Part shown: positions 299 to 40,317 of the stretch, in pieces
Numbering within the stretch: the first letter of the stretch is position 1
How the letters are laid out: every line of letters starts with the position of its first letter
From: a virus
Direction: 5' to 3' (one strand)
DNA: 41,956 nt
Virus record (IMG/VR): IMGVR_UViG_3300047508_000099
Span: 1 to 41,956 of that record
Notes under the pieces: model-generated
Told to the model about the DNA's origin: nothing
The model's input: the letters and a program-made list of their open reading frames with translations, nothing else
Database searches by the model: none
Program-made: the position numbers and the translations under genes

Positions 299-619
299 AT
301 GAAATCAATACTGATCGTCCTCGTCTTAATTCTCATCCCGGCCTTTGCCCTCTCTGCTCAATATCATTCTATTGGCGGCGTTCAGATGTCCACGTCAACG
401 GTTACGGGCAGTCTGGGTCTTGCGGTCGTCCCCAAAGCGAACGTCACGTCTTTAATTTCCACGGCTACGGGCCAGATCTTGTTTTGCCCTGACTGCACAA
501 ACGCTGGCGGGGTGAAAGGGATCGTCTGCGTTTCAACGGGCGGATTCTCCGGCAATACGGCGGGAGGGCAATACGTGATCTTGGGATCAAGTCTTACGGC
601 GGTAACGGCATGTCAATGA
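299..619 (+). CDS. Small exported protein (106 aa) with signal peptide
   Basis: The N-terminus begins MKSILIVLVLILIPAFALSA: one Lys, a long hydrophobic core and an A-x-A-like end, a typical Sec signal peptide of about 20 residues. The mature part (about 86 aa) is Gly/Ser/Thr-rich with a CxxC pair (FCPDCT) and two further Cys, which would allow disulphides in an oxidising compartment. GGAG at 290-293 precedes the ATG. It overlaps the next glycosyltransferase by 4 to 10 nt, so it is translated as part of the same operon. Function unknown; a secreted or envelope role, perhaps glycan-related, is inferred from context only. Confidence 0.75.
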   Translation: MKSILIVLVLILIPAFALSAQYHSIGGVQMSTSTVTGSLGLAVVPKANVTSLISTATGQILFCPDCTNAGGVKGIVCVSTGGFSGNTAGGQYVILGSSLTAVTACQ

Positions 620-2079
620 GTAAAGAACCAATTCTCTCGTTTGTCATTCCGGTTTACAAGAAGTCCGTCGCGACGTTTGAAAAGTGTTTAGACAGCCTCT
701 TTGACCAAAGCTTCAAGGATTTTGAGGTCATTTGTGTGTTTGACGGGCCGGACGCCGAACTTCAGAAAGTGGCTGGCAAATACAAGGTGCAAGAGGTGGT
801 TATAGAACACGGCGGAGCCCCTAAAGCCAGAAATGAAGGTTTCAAGCACGCGAAAGGAAATTATATTTCTTTTTGGGACGCGGATTGTTTTGCCAAACCC
901 GAAATGGCCGAGATGTGGATAGGAGCTTTTGATCGCAATCCGGACGCGGCTTTTGTTTATTCGGGTTATGAGTTTGCGAACGAAGAGGGCGCTCACGATG
1001 CCGAGCAATTTGATCCCTATTCGCTTCAGTGCGGAAATTACATCGCCTCTATGTTTCCGGTCAAGCGAGAGTTCTTTCCGGGCTGGGATGAGTCGCTCAA
1101 GGCCGCTCAGGACTGGGATTTCTGGCTCTCTGTAGTCGAAAAGGGCGGGGTTGGGGTGTATCTGGTGGGACGGGGTTTTGTCACTGAGCTTCCGACTTCT
1201 GGCAGCATTTCGCATACGGGCTGGAGCCCGGAGAACAGGGAATCGACGATCCGGGCTGTGCGGACCAAGCATAACATCCCCGACCGGGATATCGCTGTTT
1301 ACGGGATGGTTCATAGCGTCAAGGCCCTGGACTTGGCCAAACTTCTCGCCGCAGATCAGCTCAAGCATTCTGGCTATCCGATCAAAAATTACAAGCTCAT
1401 TTTCAATTTGGGCTATTCCAAGATGACCCGCTTCGCCGGGGCCTCGTCCACGGCGGTCAAATGCCAATACTGGTTGCCCTGGGATATCGATTGCCTCTTT
1501 GCCATTGCCCACAGGACAGCCAGAGAAACGATCCGGCTGGCGAACGAGGAAATCACCTACCAGTTCTGTAATGACATTCAGTCCAAGAAACGCCTGGAGG
1601 AGCTGGGGTTAAAGGCGGAAGTCCTGCCGCTTCCGACGCAAATGGATGAACCAGAAACAAAGCTCTCCGATAAGTTCCGTGTTCTCATCTACGTGGACAA
1701 AGCCCATGAGCCCATTATTAAAAACATTCATATGGACTTGCCATACATTGCGATTGACTACGCCGGTCAGTCGGCGGATATTACGCAATATTCGCTTTTG
1801 GTTGACTTCCATGAGAATCCGTATGCGTCGGAGGAGATCAAGCGGTTCATCTTGAATGGCCGGAACATCATCTCGAATGTCCAGGCTCCCTTCTGCGGGT
1901 TTCTGGATCTTGAAGTCAGCCATTCGGAGTTCCGCAAGGAACTGATCTCCCGCATTCGCCTGGCGCGGGAGCTGCCTTTCAACAAAGCGGGCCAGGACTA
2001 CTATAAGAACCTGGCCGCTCCGGAGAAGTTTGCGGAAAAGATCAAGGCTTTGGTCCCCGTCAAATTGGAGGTTGTATGA
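610..2079 (+). CDS. Glycosyltransferase, GT2-type N-terminal domain with long C-terminal extension (489 aa)
   Basis: Residues about 8-230 show the GT-A fold pattern of family 2 enzymes: SFVIPVYKKS at the nucleotide-binding start, CVFDGP, GGAPKARNEG, and the metal-binding D90-x-D92 in FWDADC. Residues about 250-489 do not look like GT2. They resemble part of a second nucleotide-sugar-binding domain (KFRVLIYVDK and following), so the protein may be bifunctional or carry an acceptor domain. An alternative start at ATG 616 gives an exact ATGA overlap with the preceding stop. It heads a run of three overlapping glycosyltransferase genes (610, 2076, 2770). It probably transfers a sugar from a nucleotide donor; acceptor unknown. 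Confidence 0.85.
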   Translation: MSMSKEPILSFVIPVYKKSVATFEKCLDSLFDQSFKDFEVICVFDGPDAELQKVAGKYKVQEVVIEHGGAPKARNEGFKHAKGNYISFWDADCFAKPEMAEMWIGAFDRNPDAAFVYSGYEFANEEGAHDAEQFDPYSLQCGNYIASMFPVKREFFPGWDESLKAAQDWDFWLSVVEKGGVGVYLVGRGFVTELPTSGSISHTGWSPENRESTIRAVRTKHNIPDRDIAVYGMVHSVKALDLAKLLAADQLKHSGYPIKNYKLIFNLGYSKMTRFAGASSTAVKCQYWLPWDIDCLFAIAHRTARETIRLANEEITYQFCNDIQSKKRLEELGLKAEVLPLPTQMDEPETKLSDKFRVLIYVDKAHEPIIKNIHMDLPYIAIDYAGQSADITQYSLLVDFHENPYASEEIKRFILNGRNIISNVQAPFCGFLDLEVSHSEFRKELISRIRLARELPFNKAGQDYYKNLAAPEKFAEKIKALVPVKLEVV

Positions 2080-2783
2080 CTCCCAAAGCTTCCTTCGTCA
2101 TTCCGGCCTTTAACGCCGACGCTTACCTAGCGAACACTATCGAGTCATGCCTGAACCAATCGGAGAAGAGGATCGAGGTTGTCGTTGTCAACGATGGTTC
2201 GACGGACGGGACGAAAGAGCTACTAGACTTCTACGCCGAGAAGGATCGTCGCGTTCATCCGATCCATTTAGAACAGAACGTTGGACGGTCTGAGGCTCGG
2301 AACATCGGGAATAAAGCCGTATCGTCCGAGATCATCATGGTCTTAGACTCTGACGATATGGCGACCCGGAACAGGGCCAAAGATACGTTGATGTGCTTTG
2401 AACTGAAGAAACCGGACTTGATGTATGGCTCTTGGATTCAGATTGACACCTTTGGGAACATGGAGCGCCGGATTGCCGCTCATCCCTGGACGGAGCAGGA
2501 GGCGGTGAAATACAAAACCCATTTCATTTGCCATTCCTCTGTAGCCTACCGAAAGAACCTCACGCTAAACGTCCAATATGAGAGCGGCGACTGTTCTCGC
2601 TTGGGGATCGATGACTGGCGTTTCTTCTGGGCCTGCCAGAAGAAAGGCTACAAGTTCGCCTACATCAAACCGACCCTTTGCTATTACAGGATTGTTGAAG
2701 GAACGATTTCTAAGACGCGCAATGAGGCGGAAGTCCTGGCGACCAAAGACAAGATCATGCAGGAACTTCATGTCGGCGCGTAA
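2076..2783 (+). CDS. Glycosyltransferase family 2 (235 aa)
   Basis: A compact GT-A enzyme of typical single-domain size. FVIPAFNADAY (residues 7-17), VVVVNDGSTDGT (35-46), NVGRSEARN and the DxD-type metal site DSDD (91-94) are all present; GIDDWRF further on fits the conserved acidic catalytic region. The start overlaps the preceding stop as ATGA. Expected activity is transfer of a sugar from UDP/GDP-type donors in the cytoplasm. Together with its neighbours it would build or modify a glycan; the acceptor (virion protein, host surface polymer or DNA) cannot be read from the sequence. Confidence 0.92.
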   Translation: MTPKASFVIPAFNADAYLANTIESCLNQSEKRIEVVVVNDGSTDGTKELLDFYAEKDRRVHPIHLEQNVGRSEARNIGNKAVSSEIIMVLDSDDMATRNRAKDTLMCFELKKPDLMYGSWIQIDTFGNMERRIAAHPWTEQEAVKYKTHFICHSSVAYRKNLTLNVQYESGDCSRLGIDDWRFFWACQKKGYKFAYIKPTLCYYRIVEGTISKTRNEAEVLATKDKIMQELHVGA

Positions 2784-17103: not shown

Positions 17104-17257
17104 CGCCGGGGGCTCCTTTGGATTCGTGATCCGACGGAAGGTCGGGCATCACGTAGAAATGAATTACCACCACCGGCCTCCGGTTATCGTCCCAGGGCAT
17201 TTTGTTCTTCCGGTAAAACGACATAAAGAACGAATCGTCGATACGGCCATTGGTCAC
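17096..17257 (-). CDS. Small hypothetical protein, 53 aa
   Basis: GTG 17257 overlaps the cytosine methyltransferase stop (GTGA); the ORF ends inside the start of the zinc-ribbon gene. Sequence VTNGRIDDSFFMSFYRKNKM, then PVVVIHFYVMPD, shows a strand-rich core with a disordered end. The 150-base gap it fills is otherwise unexplained. No family recognised. Confidence 0.55.
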   Translation of the reverse strand: MTNGRIDDSFFMSFYRKNKMPWDDNRRPVVVIHFYVMPDLPSDHESKGAPGDE

Positions 17258-18057
17258 TTCAGCCCCATCAGCCTTTCAAACGCTTCCCGCGCTTGGGCCG
17301 GAACCACGGCGTTGCCCAGGCCTCTAAGACGGTCCACCCGGAAGGGTACCCCATGAGCCACTCGACCCACGTCGGGTTCAGTTGCCCACCAGCCACCGTT
17401 GCCAGGTTCTGCCCCCCTTGGCCATGTTCTCCGGGGTTCTGCCCCGCGCGGGCCGTTGGAGTCGGCCACATCCCGGCGCGGGCCATCGCGTCCAGACTCG
17501 CTCCGCTCTGCCTTCCGTTCCCGGACGTCCCGCCCCGCCGACCGTGCCCATTCGGACTCATTCCCGTGTCGGGCGTGGGCAAGCAACCACCATCGTTCGC
17601 GCCGGTGATTCGCGCCCACATCTTGAGCGGATAAAATGCCCCATCGACAGTCATACCGTAGGCGGCAAAGCTCGCCAACGACTCGTTCTGCTCCTCGAAC
17701 AGTAATCGCTGAAACGTTCTCCAAGAAGACGAAGCGGGGTCGTATTTCGCCGATAAGCCGAGCGACCTCGAAGAATAAGCCGCTTCGCTTTCCGTCCAAG
17801 CCTTCTCCGCGTCCCGCAACGGAAATGTCTTGGCAGGGGAACCCGCCATAAATGATGTCGATGGCGGGGAGTTCTGTCCCGCACAGAGTTTTAACATCGT
17901 CGCAAATGGGGGCCTTTGGTAAGTCTCCGCAAGCCATCCGTGAAAGTAACACCCCGCAAGCGTATCGCTCGTTCTCACAGTAGGCGACTGGCCGCACGTA
18001 ATCTTCCAGGGCTTTAGTGAGTCCTCCGATTCCGCTAAATAAATCCAGGCCATACAC
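17254..18057 (-). CDS. dcm: DNA cytosine-5 methyltransferase (267 aa)
   Basis: Methylates cytosine C5 in a specific DNA sequence using SAM. Motif I DLFSGIGG (residues 5-12), motif IV PCQ with catalytic Cys75, motif VI ENV (113-115), motif VIII RRERWW and motif X RGLGNAVVP are all present, so it looks active. At 267 aa it is short: the target-recognition region between VIII and X is a low-complexity Arg/Gly/Glu-rich stretch (about 165-235). Starts at GTG 18057, sharing a base with the preceding TAG. A second long frame runs through nearly the whole gene. Likely protects phage DNA from host restriction. Confidence 0.9.
   Translation of the reverse strand: MYGLDLFSGIGGLTKALEDYVRPVAYCENERYACGVLLSRMACGDLPKAPICDDVKTLCGTELPAIDIIYGGFPCQDISVAGRGEGLDGKRSGLFFEVARLIGEIRPRFVFLENVSAITVRGAERVVGELCRLRYDCRWGILSAQDVGANHRRERWWLLAHARHGNESEWARSAGRDVRERKAERSESGRDGPRRDVADSNGPRGAEPRRTWPRGAEPGNGGWWATEPDVGRVAHGVPFRVDRLRGLGNAVVPAQAREAFERLMGLK
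17268..18053 (-). CDS. Second open frame inside the cytosine methyltransferase gene (261 aa)
   Basis: This frame starts at an ATG 4 bases after the methyltransferase GTG and stays open for 261 codons on the same strand. Its product does not look random: SSSWRTFQRLLFEE, YGMTVDGAFYPLKMW, GGCLPTP, MWPTPTARAG and LNPTWVEWLMGYPSGW resemble strings I remember from proteins annotated in other phages next to or instead of cytosine methyltransferases. Two readings are possible: a truly dual-coded protein, or the out-of-frame shadow of conserved methyltransferase codons that annotators have repeatedly called. Undecided. Confidence 0.35.
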   Translation of the reverse strand: MAWIYLAESEDSLKPWKITCGQSPTVRTSDTLAGCYFHGWLAETYQRPPFATMLKLCAGQNSPPSTSFMAGSPAKTFPLRDAEKAWTESEAAYSSRSLGLSAKYDPASSSWRTFQRLLFEEQNESLASFAAYGMTVDGAFYPLKMWARITGANDGGCLPTPDTGMSPNGHGRRGGTSGNGRQSGASLDAMARAGMWPTPTARAGQNPGEHGQGGQNLATVAGGQLNPTWVEWLMGYPSGWTVLEAWATPWFRPKRGKRLKG

Positions 18058-18371: not shown

Positions 18372-18808
18372 AAGACCTCCACAGGTTCAGGCGTTACTTC
18401 CTTAAACTTCACTTCGGGACCATCTAAATACGCTTCCAAAACGCGCAGCGTCCAGGTTTTACGCTTGCCCCGGTCCCCGCGCTTTCCCCATCCAAAAATA
18501 GAGAAACGGTTGTGGCACAACAGAACGGGGAGATGCGGGTTGGGCGGAAAAGGCTGGCCTTTCATCTTTCCGCTTTGCCGCACCCCTCCGTTCAGATAGG
18601 CTTTGACGTGTTCGGCCACAGCTCCGTTGTCCTCGCAGGCGTTGATGTACCAGGTTCCTACGAAGTCATGGCGCACAGCGGCCAGATCCGCCAACCCTAA
18701 GAAGTCCTTCCGGATGTTTGCGCCCATGATCCAGCGTTCCGTAACGTCCACATGCCAGCCCAAGTGTTCTAGATATTCCTTGGAACGCTGTAAAGCGACC
18801 GATGCCAT
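18368..18808 (-). CDS. PD-(D/E)XK-like nuclease family protein (146 aa)
   Basis: The pattern VALQRSKEYLEHLGWHVDVTE, then a basic residue pair and DFLGLADLAAVR, matches small phage restriction-fold proteins in which an N-terminal helix is followed by a D-x-n-acidic strand (usually ERW...RKDLFGxxDLLAI). The acidic residues Asp (DFLG) and Asp (ADL) fit the metal site, while the E-x-K part is not clear; NACEDNGAV is the next strand. It could be a resolvase-like or recombination nuclease working with the Sak4 and SSB-like proteins upstream. Confidence 0.55.
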   Translation of the reverse strand: MASVALQRSKEYLEHLGWHVDVTERWIMGANIRKDFLGLADLAAVRHDFVGTWYINACEDNGAVAEHVKAYLNGGVRQSGKMKGQPFPPNPHLPVLLCHNRFSIFGWGKRGDRGKRKTWTLRVLEAYLDGPEVKFKEVTPEPVEVL

Positions 18809-19155
18809 CAGAACGGGACTTCATCTTCGACCTTGGTGAATTTCTGACGGATCGTTCCCTTTTTATCGACTAGATGTTCGACCGTTGCTGTAAAGCTCTT
18901 CCCTGGAACTTGGTCAGTATCAAGCTGAAATTTTCCAGGGCTTTCTTCTTTGCATCCCAGGATTCGCAATAAGTCCTTCATCTCGTTTCCGAACATCACT
19001 TGTTCGAATAAGATGCCGTTTTCTTCGAGCGTCCAGATGTAACCATAAGCATTGCCCAGCTTTTTTCCGACAACTTTCTCAACCGTGAAGGTGTGTTTAC
19101 CATCTGCGATCTTTTTGTCAGGATATTGGCTATTTGTGTCAATTAACTCTTGCAT
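18808..19155 (-). CDS. Single-stranded DNA-binding-like protein (115 aa)
   Basis: A small beta-rich protein (HTFTVEKVVGKKLGNAYGYIW, KSFTATVEHLVDKKG) whose C-terminus EDEVPF is an acidic, Phe-ending tail like that of SSB proteins. It follows the recombinase gene in the same operon, where Sak4-type recombinases are often paired with an SSB. It resembles DUF669-type phage SSB-like proteins, but the OB-fold is inferred. GAGGAAAAT before its ATG lies inside the upstream HNH gene, which overlaps it by 17 nt. Confidence 0.55.
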   Translation of the reverse strand: MQELIDTNSQYPDKKIADGKHTFTVEKVVGKKLGNAYGYIWTLEENGILFEQVMFGNEMKDLLRILGCKEESPGKFQLDTDQVPGKSFTATVEHLVDKKGTIRQKFTKVEDEVPF

Positions 19156-19522
19156 ATTTTCCTCCTGCTCTCATTTTATGACGGCCTTTTTTATAGCTGT
19201 CATTTAGATTGTCTGCATTGGTTCCAATCTGCAGATGATCTGGATTAACACAGGGTGGATTGTCACAGATATGCATGACAACCAATCCTTTAGGGATTGG
19301 ACCCTTATGGATCATGTAGGACATCCGATGACTTTTTTCTAGTAATTCTCGCCCCATCGCAATACGACCATAACCATTTGGATCTTTATGGCCTGTCCAC
19401 AACCAACACTTTTTCGTCTTTTTTACCTTTTCGAAAAAACGTCGGCGGACGGTATGCCAAGGACTATCGTGTCCTCTACAGTCAGGATATTTTCCAGTAG
19501 CATCCGTAAATTCCCGGCTCAC
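19139..19522 (-). CDS. HNH endonuclease (127 aa), probable homing gene
   Basis: The HNH_3-type fold is clear: CWLWTGHKDPNGYGRI, SHRMSYMIHKGPIPKGLVV, then MHICDNPPCVNPDHLQIGT and N-x2-N-x2-D. His, Asn and the zinc-binding Cys pairs are present, so it is likely active. GTG start overlaps the Sak4 stop (GTGA) and its end runs 17 nt into the SSB-like gene. It sits between two genes of one pathway, as free-standing homing endonucleases do. More AT-rich than its neighbours. Confidence 0.88.
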   Translation of the reverse strand: MSREFTDATGKYPDCRGHDSPWHTVRRRFFEKVKKTKKCWLWTGHKDPNGYGRIAMGRELLEKSHRMSYMIHKGPIPKGLVVMHICDNPPCVNPDHLQIGTNADNLNDSYKKGRHKMRAGGKYARVN

Positions 19523-20394
19523 TTCGCATCCCCTTTCAGTTTCTTCGCCAGAAATTCCAAGAATTTCGCCGCGTTGTCCTGGCTCAAGTCTTCCAGCTCA
19601 ACGGCCTGGGCCTTGGTCAGCCATTTGTCGAGATCTTCTTCCGTGATCTTGAGCAGTTCGACGATACGCTTAATTTCCGTAAGCTGGTCCGGCGTGGCGA
19701 GGACAATGGGCGCAACGTCTTCATCAATAACCGATGCCCCATACAGTTTTTGGAACGTTGGAAAGTCGAGATTGATGTCGGTAAGAACTGGAAATGCATC
19801 AATACGTGACTTAGCGACTGTAGCAAACCGTTTAGTTCCGACCATTTTTGTCTGCAGCCACAAGTCCAACTCATAGTGAAGTTTTTTATAACCGTCGTAT
19901 GTCGAACCGGCATAGATCAGCTCCCTTTCCCTGCGCTCCCATTTGTCTTTCTGGTGGCAGATCAAAATAACGTTCATCGGCAGGCGCTCGAGCCAGGTCA
20001 GGAGTTTGCGCGTCGGTTTGTCAGCCTCGCGCTTATCTTTTCCAAAGTCTGAGCCAATTCGATCTTCAGCCGCAGCAGCTTCAAGGTTGTAGAGTTTGGA
20101 AAAACTGTCAATAACCAGTGTTCTATAGGGGTGCTTTGTCGTAGCGAGTTCGCGAATTTGTCCAAGGACTTCTTGAAAGTCTTGCGATCCTTGTTCTGGG
20201 CCGAAGTAAATCCCTTCCGCTTCTTTAAGTCGTTTGACATATTGCTCCCTCTGGGCTCCCGATTCGGTGTCGATAAAGTACGGCGCTGGCCAGTTCAGGC
20301 TGAAATATGTTTTGCCTGTCCCCGGTTCTCCCGATAACATGATGTGCGGCTTTCTGGCTTTGACGATCTCCGGCTTGATTCCCTTTAGTGCCAT
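19519..20394 (-). CDS. Sak4-like RecA-fold recombinase/ATPase (291 aa)
   Basis: P-loop SGEPGTGKT at residues 21-29, Walker B TLVIDS, a sensor-like ICHQK, and the FIDTESG strand identify the AAA_24/Sak4 group of single-domain RecA-like proteins used for phage single-strand annealing and recombination. Length is typical. AAAAAGGAG lies 7-8 nt before the ATG. Acts with the SSB-like gene downstream, now separated by an HNH insertion. Confidence 0.8.
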   Translation of the reverse strand: MALKGIKPEIVKARKPHIMLSGEPGTGKTYFSLNWPAPYFIDTESGAQREQYVKRLKEAEGIYFGPEQGSQDFQEVLGQIRELATTKHPYRTLVIDSFSKLYNLEAAAAEDRIGSDFGKDKREADKPTRKLLTWLERLPMNVILICHQKDKWERRERELIYAGSTYDGYKKLHYELDLWLQTKMVGTKRFATVAKSRIDAFPVLTDINLDFPTFQKLYGASVIDEDVAPIVLATPDQLTEIKRIVELLKITEEDLDKWLTKAQAVELEDLSQDNAAKFLEFLAKKLKGDAK

Positions 20395-20438
20395 GTCTGA
20401 CTCCTTTTTATAGTCCCTGAGGACTGGTTTGAAATCGG

Positions 20439-20930
20439 TTAGATCGCCATCTTCATCTGCGCCCGTTCCCTGGCGATCCTGGCGTTGGCAATGGGAACAT
20501 TCTTCGTATTGAATTTATTATGGAGTCGAGGATGTTCCTGCCGCGTTACAGGTATAAGGTTTACAATCGTATCGTCCATGGAATCGTTGTTAATATGGTG
20601 AATGCACATGCCCGCAGGAATCGCACCATTTTCTTTGATCCATAGCCACTTAGCGTATTCCATCCAATTCTGTGATCCTGCTTTGAAGTCGTCCTTGAAT
20701 TTAATCCATCGTCGCGGAGTATGGGAATTTTTATCGGCCCTCACTGTGATAGTCCCAATCGAAACCCAATTAATGCTCTTTTCGCCTTTCTTAAATTCTG
20801 TTTGCGGAGAAACGCGAACACCTCTCCGGCCTTTATTCCACGGAACAATCCCCTTCTGAAAACTTGTTCTATTTGCAGCGTTTCCAACAGCAAACTTATT
20901 TCCAAGGAGATAACTGTCATCTCGATTCAT
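20439..20930 (-). CDS. HNH endonuclease with NUMOD3-like repeats and methyltransferase-like tail (163 aa)
   Basis: N-terminal GNKFAVGNAANRTSFQKG and PWNKGRRG are NUMOD3-like DNA-binding repeats seen in homing endonucleases. The central IHHINNDSMDDTIVNLIPV, with a following H-x2-LH, is the HNH core. The last 17 residues (IANARIARERAQMKMAI) match the C-terminus of the upstream DNA methyltransferase (IAEARIARERNQLKMAI) at 14 of 17 positions. ATG overlaps the methyltransferase stop (ATGA). The body is AT-rich; the shared tail is GC-rich like the rest of the phage. This points to insertion into the end of the methyltransferase gene. Confidence 0.88.
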   Translation of the reverse strand: MNRDDSYLLGNKFAVGNAANRTSFQKGIVPWNKGRRGVRVSPQTEFKKGEKSINWVSIGTITVRADKNSHTPRRWIKFKDDFKAGSQNWMEYAKWLWIKENGAIPAGMCIHHINNDSMDDTIVNLIPVTRQEHPRLHNKFNTKNVPIANARIARERAQMKMAI

Positions 20931-22303
20931 ATAGCCATTTTTAATTGATTTCTCTCTCTTGCGATCCTTGCCTCTGCAATTTTGACGTATTCAATATTCA
21001 TTTCTATTCCTAGCCAAGGTCTGTTATGAAATTCTGCCGCCCACAATGTGCTTCCTGATCCACAGAACGGATCTAAAACGATCCCGCCCGTTGGGGTGCG
21101 GGTGAGTTGGCAGAGGTATTTCATCAACTCCAAAGGCTTCACTGTTGGATGGTGGTTGGCCGAGGGCTTATTACTTCCCATCTTTCGAGTCAGATCATCC
21201 TTCTCGTCGTTACCATGACCACGCATTTTCTGAACCTTCATTGGCAATTCATCGCACCCCTCATTCCTCTCGGCCCGGCAGGACTTGGCGACGTAGAAGA
21301 AGCGGGAGGCTCCGCTGGAGTCGCCGAATCCAAGCCCTTGAATCTCAGGACGAGCTTTCATTCCGTAGCCTTTATCACGCACTCCCGAACCGGACCAACC
21401 GCCTTTTGATTCGCCTAGTCCTCCGCTCTGTCCATCCAGCATCCCCGCCGCTTCTTCGTCCAAGAGTAAGTTGGAGGGCCAGCGGCCTTTCGGTAAAGCT
21501 GTCGCTGATCCTTTGTGTTCTCCGTAAGCGTTGCCAGTGGTGCGAGCTTCGCCTTTCTTCGCCCATTCCTGAGCGGTGTAGTCATGTGTCCCAATCCTCC
21601 CACCATCCACATTCAACCCCGCCACACCCCACTTCTCGGCGTTGGCCGCAAAGGTTCCGTCCAAGGGTTTCATGGCGACGATGATTGGCTCCCAGGCGGG
21701 TTTGAGGGCCGTTCCCCAGCCGTTCCAGAGCGTAGCGGGGAGCGTAGCGGGGCGGGGCTTGCCGCCGTCAAACATCGAGCGTGGTCCCTGGCGTTTGTAT
21801 CCCACGACCTCACGCTCGGCCTTCGCCGCCTTATCAATCGCCTTGGAGATATCCAAGGACTTCGGAAACCCCGAGCCGTAGAGCCACATCAAGCAATCGC
21901 GGATCTGCCAGCCAGTGTCTTCAAGGCCTGCGGTCATGCGGTGGAATGTCCTGGTTCCCCCTGAGACAAGCATGATCGCTCCCGGCTTGGCGATGCGGAG
22001 AGCTTCGGTTGCCCAGGAGCAACACCAGCCCTGGAAATTGCGGTTTGCTTCCACCGATCTATCGTACTCGCCAGCACAGAAGGCCTTATTCTCTGTTGAC
22101 ATGAAACCACGGCCATCCTTTCGTGGGGTGCGCCTACGCTTCTCGCGGATCGTTTTATCAATATCGAAAGCATCCCACGCCTTGCCCATAAACCCGATTC
22201 CATACGGCGGGTCCGTTATTATCGTGTCAACCCAGTTCTCCGGCCAGGTCTTCATAACCTCAATGCAGTCGCCGGTGTAGATCTTGTTTAGATCGGGAGT
22301 CAT
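20927..22303 (-). CDS. DNA N6-adenine/N4-cytosine methyltransferase (458 aa)
   Basis: Catalytic motif IV DPPYGIGF (from residue 31) comes before the SAM-binding motif I DPFCGSGST (411-419), the beta-class order of N6/N4 DNA methyltransferases. Between them lies a long recognition region with AKPGAIMLVSGG and SRFFYVAKSC. HPTVKPLELMKYL before motif I is also characteristic. It modifies phage DNA, probably against restriction, and pairs with the cytosine-5 enzyme downstream. From about codon 420 on, the gene becomes AT-rich, matching the adjacent HNH gene rather than the rest of itself. ATG overlaps the upstream stop. Confidence 0.92.
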   Translation of the reverse strand: MTPDLNKIYTGDCIEVMKTWPENWVDTIITDPPYGIGFMGKAWDAFDIDKTIREKRRRTPRKDGRGFMSTENKAFCAGEYDRSVEANRNFQGWCCSWATEALRIAKPGAIMLVSGGTRTFHRMTAGLEDTGWQIRDCLMWLYGSGFPKSLDISKAIDKAAKAEREVVGYKRQGPRSMFDGGKPRPATLPATLWNGWGTALKPAWEPIIVAMKPLDGTFAANAEKWGVAGLNVDGGRIGTHDYTAQEWAKKGEARTTGNAYGEHKGSATALPKGRWPSNLLLDEEAAGMLDGQSGGLGESKGGWSGSGVRDKGYGMKARPEIQGLGFGDSSGASRFFYVAKSCRAERNEGCDELPMKVQKMRGHGNDEKDDLTRKMGSNKPSANHHPTVKPLELMKYLCQLTRTPTGGIVLDPFCGSGSTLWAAEFHNRPWLGIEMNIEYVKIAEARIARERNQLKMAI

Positions 22304-39184: not shown

Positions 39185-39781
39185 ATGAGTTCTCTGGCGG
39201 GTAAGCAGTCAACAGAACCTATGCCGCTGCAGCCGCAGCAGGTAAACGGGAACTGTTTACCCGTCGGAGGGCCAGTTCGTTTGATGCTGGGCGGACGCGA
39301 TCACAAGCTCACAGGCTGGACGAACATTGACTTGCACGACGGGCCGCATGTGGACGTGAAATGCGATGTGTCGAAGTTGCCGTTTGACAACAGCGTGGTC
39401 GATGACATTTACGCCAGTCATGTTCTGGAGCATTTCAGCCATCTGCGGACATTGGATGTCCTGAAGGAATGGCGCAGGGTTTTGAAGAAGGGCGGCAAGG
39501 CGTACATTGCTGTTCCTGACTTTAGAGCCGTTCTCAATATCTACAAAGAGTTTGGAATGGTGACTTGGGTGACGCATATGCTTTACGGCGATCAGGAATA
39601 TCCCTTGGCCTATCACTACACCATTTTTGACTCGGAAAGCCTGCCGAACCTTCTGCACGAAGCGGGATTTTCCTTGGTTCAGCAAGTGCAGTCTTTCAGT
39701 TTGGGCCTAAACGACTGTTCGACTTTGGTCGATGTCATTTACCGTAGGCCCGTCAGCTTGAACGTGGAGGCTATCGCATGA
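39185..39781 (+). CDS. SAM-dependent methyltransferase, copy 1 (198 aa)
   Basis: Class I methyltransferase of the type-11/COG4627-like group: RLMLGGRDHKLTGWTNIDLH (SAM motif I and acidic strand 2), DVKCDVSKLPFDNSVVDDIY, ASHVLEHF, and VLKKGGKAYIAVPDF. Begins at the base after the capsid stop, so is cotranslated with capsid. Substrate unknown; in this cassette a sugar or protein methyl acceptor is likely. About 35-40 per cent similar by eye to the next gene. Confidence 0.85.
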   Translation: MSSLAGKQSTEPMPLQPQQVNGNCLPVGGPVRLMLGGRDHKLTGWTNIDLHDGPHVDVKCDVSKLPFDNSVVDDIYASHVLEHFSHLRTLDVLKEWRRVLKKGGKAYIAVPDFRAVLNIYKEFGMVTWVTHMLYGDQEYPLAYHYTIFDSESLPNLLHEAGFSLVQQVQSFSLGLNDCSTLVDVIYRRPVSLNVEAIA

Positions 39782-40317
39782 TAGCTGAGGCGATTCGCTT
39801 AAACCTCGGCGGGGCCGGGGAAGGCTACCGGAACGGGCGGATACCCGGATTTAAGACTGTCGATCTCAGAGAAGGACCGAGTACAGATATTGTAGCCAAC
39901 GTCGAAAATCTTGCCTTCTGCAAAATGGATAGCGTCCAAGAGATTTACGCCTCCAATATTCTCGAACACTTCCCGCACACTCAGACTGTCCGCGTTCTAA
40001 AAGAATGGCACAGGGTTTTAGTTCCACGTGGAACACTTTACGTCTCAGTTCCGGACTTCGATGCCTGTGTTCGGCTCTATCAAAAGCTCGGCTTAGTTCC
40101 TTGGGTCCGGTTTTTGATCTGGGGCGATCAGGAACACCCGTTGAACTATCACTATATTAATTTCACATTTGCCACGCTGGCGGAGGCGGTCATGAACGCG
40201 GGATTCTCCGATATCAAACGGATTGAGCATCTGCCGTTTGGCAATCAGGATGCTTCGGAGATCGTCGATAACGTGGAACACAAGCCGGTCAGCTTGAATT
40301 GTGTGGCGACCAAATGA
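39778..40317 (+). CDS. SAM-dependent methyltransferase, copy 2 (179 aa)
   Basis: Same family as the preceding gene: RLNLGGAGEGYRNGRIPGFK, TVDLREGPSTDI, YASNILEHFPHTQTVRVLKE, WHRVLVPRGTLYVSVPDFDA, WGDQEHPLNYHY and an identical PVSLN near the end. The tandem pair arose by duplication and has diverged. ATGA overlap with copy 1. Probably acts on different positions of the same product. Confidence 0.85.
   Translation: MIAEAIRLNLGGAGEGYRNGRIPGFKTVDLREGPSTDIVANVENLAFCKMDSVQEIYASNILEHFPHTQTVRVLKEWHRVLVPRGTLYVSVPDFDACVRLYQKLGLVPWVRFLIWGDQEHPLNYHYINFTFATLAEAVMNAGFSDIKRIEHLPFGNQDASEIVDNVEHKPVSLNCVATK

Follow-up and report, generated by a model that had tools for sequence, protein, structure and literature searches.

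An HNH homing-type element has probably entered an N6/N4 methyltransferase (MTase) gene near its 3′ end in a phage genome, bringing a replacement for that end and leaving the old tail as the in-frame terminus of the HNH protein; a second nuclease gene of the same operon, HNH2, would have done likewise at a 5′ end. Homing genes usually spare their targets by means of introns, inteins or intergenic sites. The locus lies on the minus strand of the 41,956-nt IMG/VR record IMGVR_UViG_3300047508_000099, analyzed at its full length (the window), in the order P117, MTase, HNH, AAA_24 ATPase (AAA), HNH2, P115 (Table 1). The nuclease domain PF13392 scores above cut-off in both HNH proteins. An initial annotation, made from the sequence, had proposed the MTase insertion; composition breakpoints, a relic in a related phage, the ancestral junction, the differing HNH relatives and the lack of a detectable intron all support it.

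Table 1 Features of the MTase–HNH and HNH2–P115 loci (window coordinates).
Feature	Position	Strand	Evidence or remark
P117	22300-22653	(-)	Gene upstream of MTase; directly before AAA in L012
MTase ORF	20927-22303	(-)	458 aa
Native GC-rich MTase body, codons 1-408	21080..22303	(-)	Pfam N6_N4_Mtase 3.8e-29; GC3 0.66 to codon 408
Putative AT-rich MTase replacement end, codons 409-458 + TGA (motif I to last helix)	20927..21079	(-)	GC3 0.40, structure model, CcrM alignment
ATGA, overlap of MTase stop and HNH start	20927..20930	(-)	ORF coordinates
HNH ORF	20439-20930	(-)	163 aa
AT-rich HNH body, codons 1-144	20499..20930	(-)	Pfam HNH_3 7.9e-10; phrog_1891 on residues 22-142
Putative captured native MTase tail VPIANARIARERAQMKMAI + TAA, in frame at HNH end	20439..20498	(-)	14/17 residues, GC3 0.88, break at HNH codon 148, relic 34/42 nt
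TAACCGATTTCAA, ancestral junction (HNH stop + next 10 bases)	20429..20441	(-)	Directly after P117 in L012
AAA_24 ATPase gene, downstream of HNH	19519..20394	(-)	Pfam AAA_24 9.9e-23
HNH2 ORF	19139-19522	(-)	1 kb from HNH
Probable captured native P115 start (GTG, MSREFTDATGKYPD), front of HNH2	19481..19522	(-)	Place and residues resemble P115 starts in L005-L008
HNH2 endonuclease body	19139..19480	(-)	Pfam HNH_3 7.6e-12
Putative replacement P115 start (GGAGG, ATG, MQELIDTNSQYPDKK), overlapping HNH2 end	19108..19165	(-)	Comparison with starts in relatives
P115, target gene in the HNH2 arrangement	18808..19155	(-)	68% identical to uninvaded L005 copy

Duplicated tails and composition of the MTase and HNH genes

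The MTase has a stop of its own ahead of HNH, and the HNH_3 ORF overlaps that stop. The two proteins end alike, HNH in VPIANARIARERAQMKMAI and the MTase in VKIAEARIARERNQLKMAI. As the initial annotation had reported, 14 of the 17 final residues are identical, and the DNA spans that it quoted (20439-20492 and 20927-20980) are correct, stop codons included. Its DNA match of about two-thirds was measured at 63% over 17 codons and 65% over 18, and the third-position differences it described are systematic, with opposite GC bias in the two copies (GC 61% in the HNH tail vs 39% in the MTase tail; GC3 0.88 vs 0.29). The resemblance starts at V145/P146, slightly upstream of where it had been placed. 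Aligned from their ends, the tails reach a BLOSUM62 score of 64 (20,000 shuffles: mean -7.9, s.d. 9.8, maximum 33), and chance is excluded as the source of the likeness. Comparable tail scores among 3,172 adjacent ORF pairs in the fetched loci occurred in tandem MTase pairs only; the second tail copies in L022, L067, L069 and L172 were rejected as candidates, being tandem MTases with no HNH capture. The form xPIA recurs in the motif of MTase relatives, with P in 14 of 115. Since the MTase family generally diverges beyond the ARI motif, the ARERxQxKMAI end that the two proteins have in common is lineage-specific.

Fitted with three segments, GC3 along MTase and HNH takes the values 0.66, 0.40 and 0.94 and changes at MTase codon 409 and HNH codon 148; the log-likelihood gain of 24.1 compares with a maximum of 11.5 among 60 permutations. 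These high-low-high breakpoints bear out the earlier description of a GC-rich HNH tail beside an AT-rich MTase end and HNH body. The break within HNH coincides with the onset of the MTase-like part of the protein; the one within the MTase falls on the strand that begins motif I. In an AlphaFold model, MTase residues 409-458 form a strand, a helix, a strand and the last helix (pLDDT 92-96); their counterpart in an alignment with CcrM is the motif I region, where the SAM pocket of this MTase class lies. An MTase truncated here should therefore be dead and a replacement needed. The retained native tail spans the last helix only.

The match of the HNH protein to phrog_1891, a family of free-standing phage HNH proteins, ends before the tail. 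Nine aligned relatives carry a different C-terminal segment, without the captured tail, and begin with an N-terminal segment that the window HNH lacks; the latter may be altered or have lost its activity. No match came from the PDB when the HNH alignment served as query. End capture was seen in none of 14 other HNH genes from phages and plasmids, and is thus not general among HNH genes.

Further methyltransferase-like ORFs lie elsewhere in the window. Two same-strand ORFs in different frames (17254-18057 and 17268-18053, minus strand) have 0.8 kb in common, and both match DNA methyltransferases in PHROG (phrog_363, 1.8e-64; phrog_1008, 2.4e-19); they are either overlapping genes or an out-of-frame family artefact. 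Two adjacent ORFs with similar tails on the plus strand (39185-39781 and 39778-40317) look like tandem paralogues.

Uninvaded relatives and alternative explanations

The tail pattern I-A-R-E-R-x-Q-x-K-M, searched in IMG/VR, has a single match, in L180, which belongs to the same phage group by its terminase (68% identity, L189) and also has blastn matches to the window. The match is a relic of ~14 codons, ARIARERSQMKMAL, followed by a stop, and neither an MTase nor an HNH match was found in the L180 record. It agrees with the HNH tail at 34 of 42 nt and with the MTase's own end at 24 of 42; third bases at shared residues agree in 9 of 12 cases vs 2 of 11, and the relic region matches the window at 20445-20483 only. 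Roughly 0.5 chance occurrences of the pattern are expected in the whole of IMG/VR, and the contigs of this phage group are few, so that a chance match in L180 is very unlikely. The relic covers little sequence, and an invaded copy could be its ancestor. A second tail pattern matched only L182 and L183, which are unrelated and were rejected as chance. No intact MTase with a GC-rich tail was found in IMG/VR among close relatives of MTase, HNH, AAA and terminase, and an MTase search in the contigs behind related loci returned short, different MTases only. The L180 relic, which is nearer to the HNH tail, suggests that the GC-rich tail may be the native one; no intact uninvaded MTase of the lineage turned up in these searches. 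We found neither uninvaded MTases with AT-rich ends nor ARIARER in HNH proteins without an MTase.

The junction is preserved in L012, which lacks both MTase and HNH: P117 is followed by TAACCGATTTCAA and then directly by AAA, 95% identical to the window AAA over the part compared. The window copy of these 13 bases begins with the HNH stop. Because the sequence is shared with L012, the GC-rich tail adjoins ancestral phage DNA.

These observations bear on several other histories. Tandem MTases may once have flanked the HNH gene, the second being mostly deleted and its tail fused to HNH; tandem MTases of the family with similar tails do occur (L022, L067, L069 and L172). Such a deletion leaves unexplained why, from codon 409 on, the MTase takes on the composition of the HNH body, the tail is the sole remnant of a second MTase seen, and HNH2 would require a separate explanation, so we regard this history as unlikely. 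If the MTase end had been duplicated locally and the copy had then diverged, this would account for 14 of 17 shared residues in adjacent genes; such a history is very improbable, given the systematic third-position differences with opposite GC bias and the GC-rich form in a related phage without the MTase. As little credit is due to a restriction-modification pair in which the shared tail is a common interaction helix. The genes are adjacent and overlapping, and both are missing together from L012, as this would have it, yet the HNH protein groups with free-standing phage HNH proteins whose members have no MTase neighbor in the loci examined and lack the tail, and the composition pattern would go unexplained.

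We give least credence to an intron, made up of the AT-rich end and the HNH gene, with the GC-rich tail as second MTase exon. HNH genes often reside inside phage group I introns, and mitochondrial introns of Tremella carry copies of the following exon (PMC7315562). Here, however, no Rfam family matched the window at gathering score, and a search of the locus at E up to 1 gave two sub-threshold matches only, both non-intron; moreover, the MTase is already complete without splicing, and the tail shares the reading frame of HNH. The description of the locus as intron-free thus agrees with the Rfam results, and insertion of an element with its own MTase end remains the probable history.

A second HNH gene at the start of P115

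L005, L006, L007 and L008 have no gene between AAA and P115, and in five relatives without HNH2, P115 starts within the AAA stop (ATGA). The starts read MTIEVIDTNS in L005, MSREYTNTNS in L006, MSRETTDTNN in L007 and MSYETTDTNS in L008, and L011 carries ATGACCCAAGAATCTACCGAC at the corresponding position. At this position in the window stands the start of HNH2, (GTG) MSREFTDATGKYPD, with TGAGCCGGGAA common to L007; its first 14 residues resemble a native P115 start, exactly where uninvaded relatives begin that gene. Same-register scores of the HNH2 front against the starts of L005, L006, L007 and L008 are 25, 23, 32 and 29 (null mean -6.6, s.d. 7.3; among 3,587 unrelated ORFs, 0.17% score at least 23 and 0.06% at least 29). 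For most of the best-matching phage relatives of HNH2, the alignment begins only at residue 21. The window P115 begins inside the HNH2 end with a GGAGG of its own and a different start, MQELIDTNSQYPDKK. Position and residues together make it quite probable that HNH2 is the 5′-end counterpart of HNH and captured the native P115 start. No significant composition break was detected in HNH2/P115, and the mirror case is less certain for that reason.

Other HNH_3 genes lie just upstream of, or overlap, the AAA start in L005 (881-1240, plus strand) and L009 (4529-5011, plus strand), which indicates that a hot spot for HNH genes flanks AAA. In L087, a terminase gene (305-1906, plus strand) is followed by a divergent copy of its C-terminal part only (2028-2495, plus strand), just before a methyltransferase; this is possibly another displaced gene end.

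Proposed mechanism and known homing systems

At the sequence level it is established that the composition is chimeric, that gene ends are duplicated, and that relatives carry a native-like relic or native starts. For the events behind this pattern, we infer cleavage of uninvaded alleles by the nucleases and insertion via break repair. An element of ~0.6 kb would have entered the MTase gene near its 3′ end, bringing an AT-rich coding sequence for MTase residues 409-458, closed by a stop in which the HNH gene that follows begins (ATGA). The nuclease would cut near the gene end, and repair of the break would copy in the replacement end together with the nuclease gene. By encoding anew the motif I-II half that was lost, together with the last helix, the replacement would keep the MTase complete, while the severed native tail (~19 codons and TAA) would have remained downstream as the in-frame HNH terminus, providing its stop codon. 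The recoded end would presumably no longer match the nuclease target, making the invaded allele immune. In the case of HNH2, the old P115 start would serve as the nuclease's own start and P115 would have been given a new one; the ATGA and GTGA overlaps and the internal ribosome-binding site would keep the operon coupled. That a class of phage HNH genes homes into gene ends in this manner, with a recoded replacement and the severed end as its own terminus, in both polarities within one phage, is a tentative proposal to which we give somewhat less than even weight.

Mobile ORFs (mORFs) with C-terminal replacement are known from fungal mitochondria, in atp6 of Allomyces and in atp6, atp9, cox2 and nad3 of Glomus (PMC3630166). 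As proposed for the window, an endonuclease ORF lies near the 3′ end of a conserved gene, with a replacement C-terminus ahead of it and the native one downstream. The DNA identities are also similar: the two copies in Glomus atp6 are 63.5% identical, with the native copy at 91% to an uninvaded relative (PMC3630166), compared with 63-65% between the copies here and 34/42 between the putative native copy and the L180 relic. The fungal elements, in contrast, encode LAGLIDADG or GIY-YIG nucleases in mitochondria, whereas an HNH nuclease in a phage operon is found here, the putative native end demonstrably stands in frame at its terminus, and a probable 5′-end counterpart lies nearby. Since the nuclease is of the HNH_3 type and the record is an IMG/VR virus, we say that the element works like a fungal mORF, not that it is one. 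The initial annotation's intron-free route to harmless homing accordingly holds as regards the intron, and is not wholly new, as the fungal mitochondrial elements do the same (PMC3630166).

Among phages, the ShiLan-type HNH insertion in an actinobacteriophage DNA methylase resembles the window locus: its first part is an 11-residue copy of the target that follows (PMC11855218). It too is an HNH insertion in a homologous phage methylase, neither intron nor intein, with a target copy ~66% identical in DNA, and in both cases the start of the insertion copies the target, in the window through the replacement end that duplicates the native tail. The ShiLan HNH, however, lies hidden in another frame of a methylase that is itself uninterrupted, and its site is more central. 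In the window, by comparison, the copy extends as far as the gene naturally does and carries a stop of its own, while HNH follows downstream as a gene in its own right whose end is the putative native tail. Gp66 of Starcevich (L018 1501-4545, plus strand) has two insertions relative to the window MTase: one at WLYG/SGFPKS, and a second with a target copy (SYEPVCVAVKP / AFEPIVVARKP) of the ShiLan type. Free-standing phage HNH genes such as T4 mob, in the portions of PMC2988022 and PMC10448857 that we consulted, are likewise small HNH_3 genes between conserved genes and variably present (the mob and seg genes of T4 are intergenic; PMC2988022). They differ in being intergenic, intron- or intein-borne, or gene-splitting (mobE in nrdA, genes-in-pieces), and those portions describe no replaced or captured gene ends. 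The Tremella introns are also homing elements with a divergent copy of neighboring target coding sequence, which can replace the target, but they are described as intron-derived (PMC7315562), and no intron was found in the window locus. No report of end replacement with capture in phages emerged from the literature library searched; the proposed arrangement in the window is a phage, HNH-class variant of the fungal type of end replacement, apparently undescribed in that library.

End replacement by phage HNH genes, which apparently took place two times within one operon, once at a 3′ and once at a 5′ end, points to a more general strategy by which a selfish gene would be able to spread and leave its target intact. 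ShiLan's unexplained copy of 11 target residues may follow the same logic, and some chimeric gene ends and odd terminal extensions of HNH proteins in phage annotation would find an explanation. In-frame capture of a severed end offers a simple signature for genome scans. If the proposal is true, these elements would act as a natural home-and-rescue gene drive without any need for an intron or intein, taking the stop of its target at 3′ ends and the start at 5′ ends.
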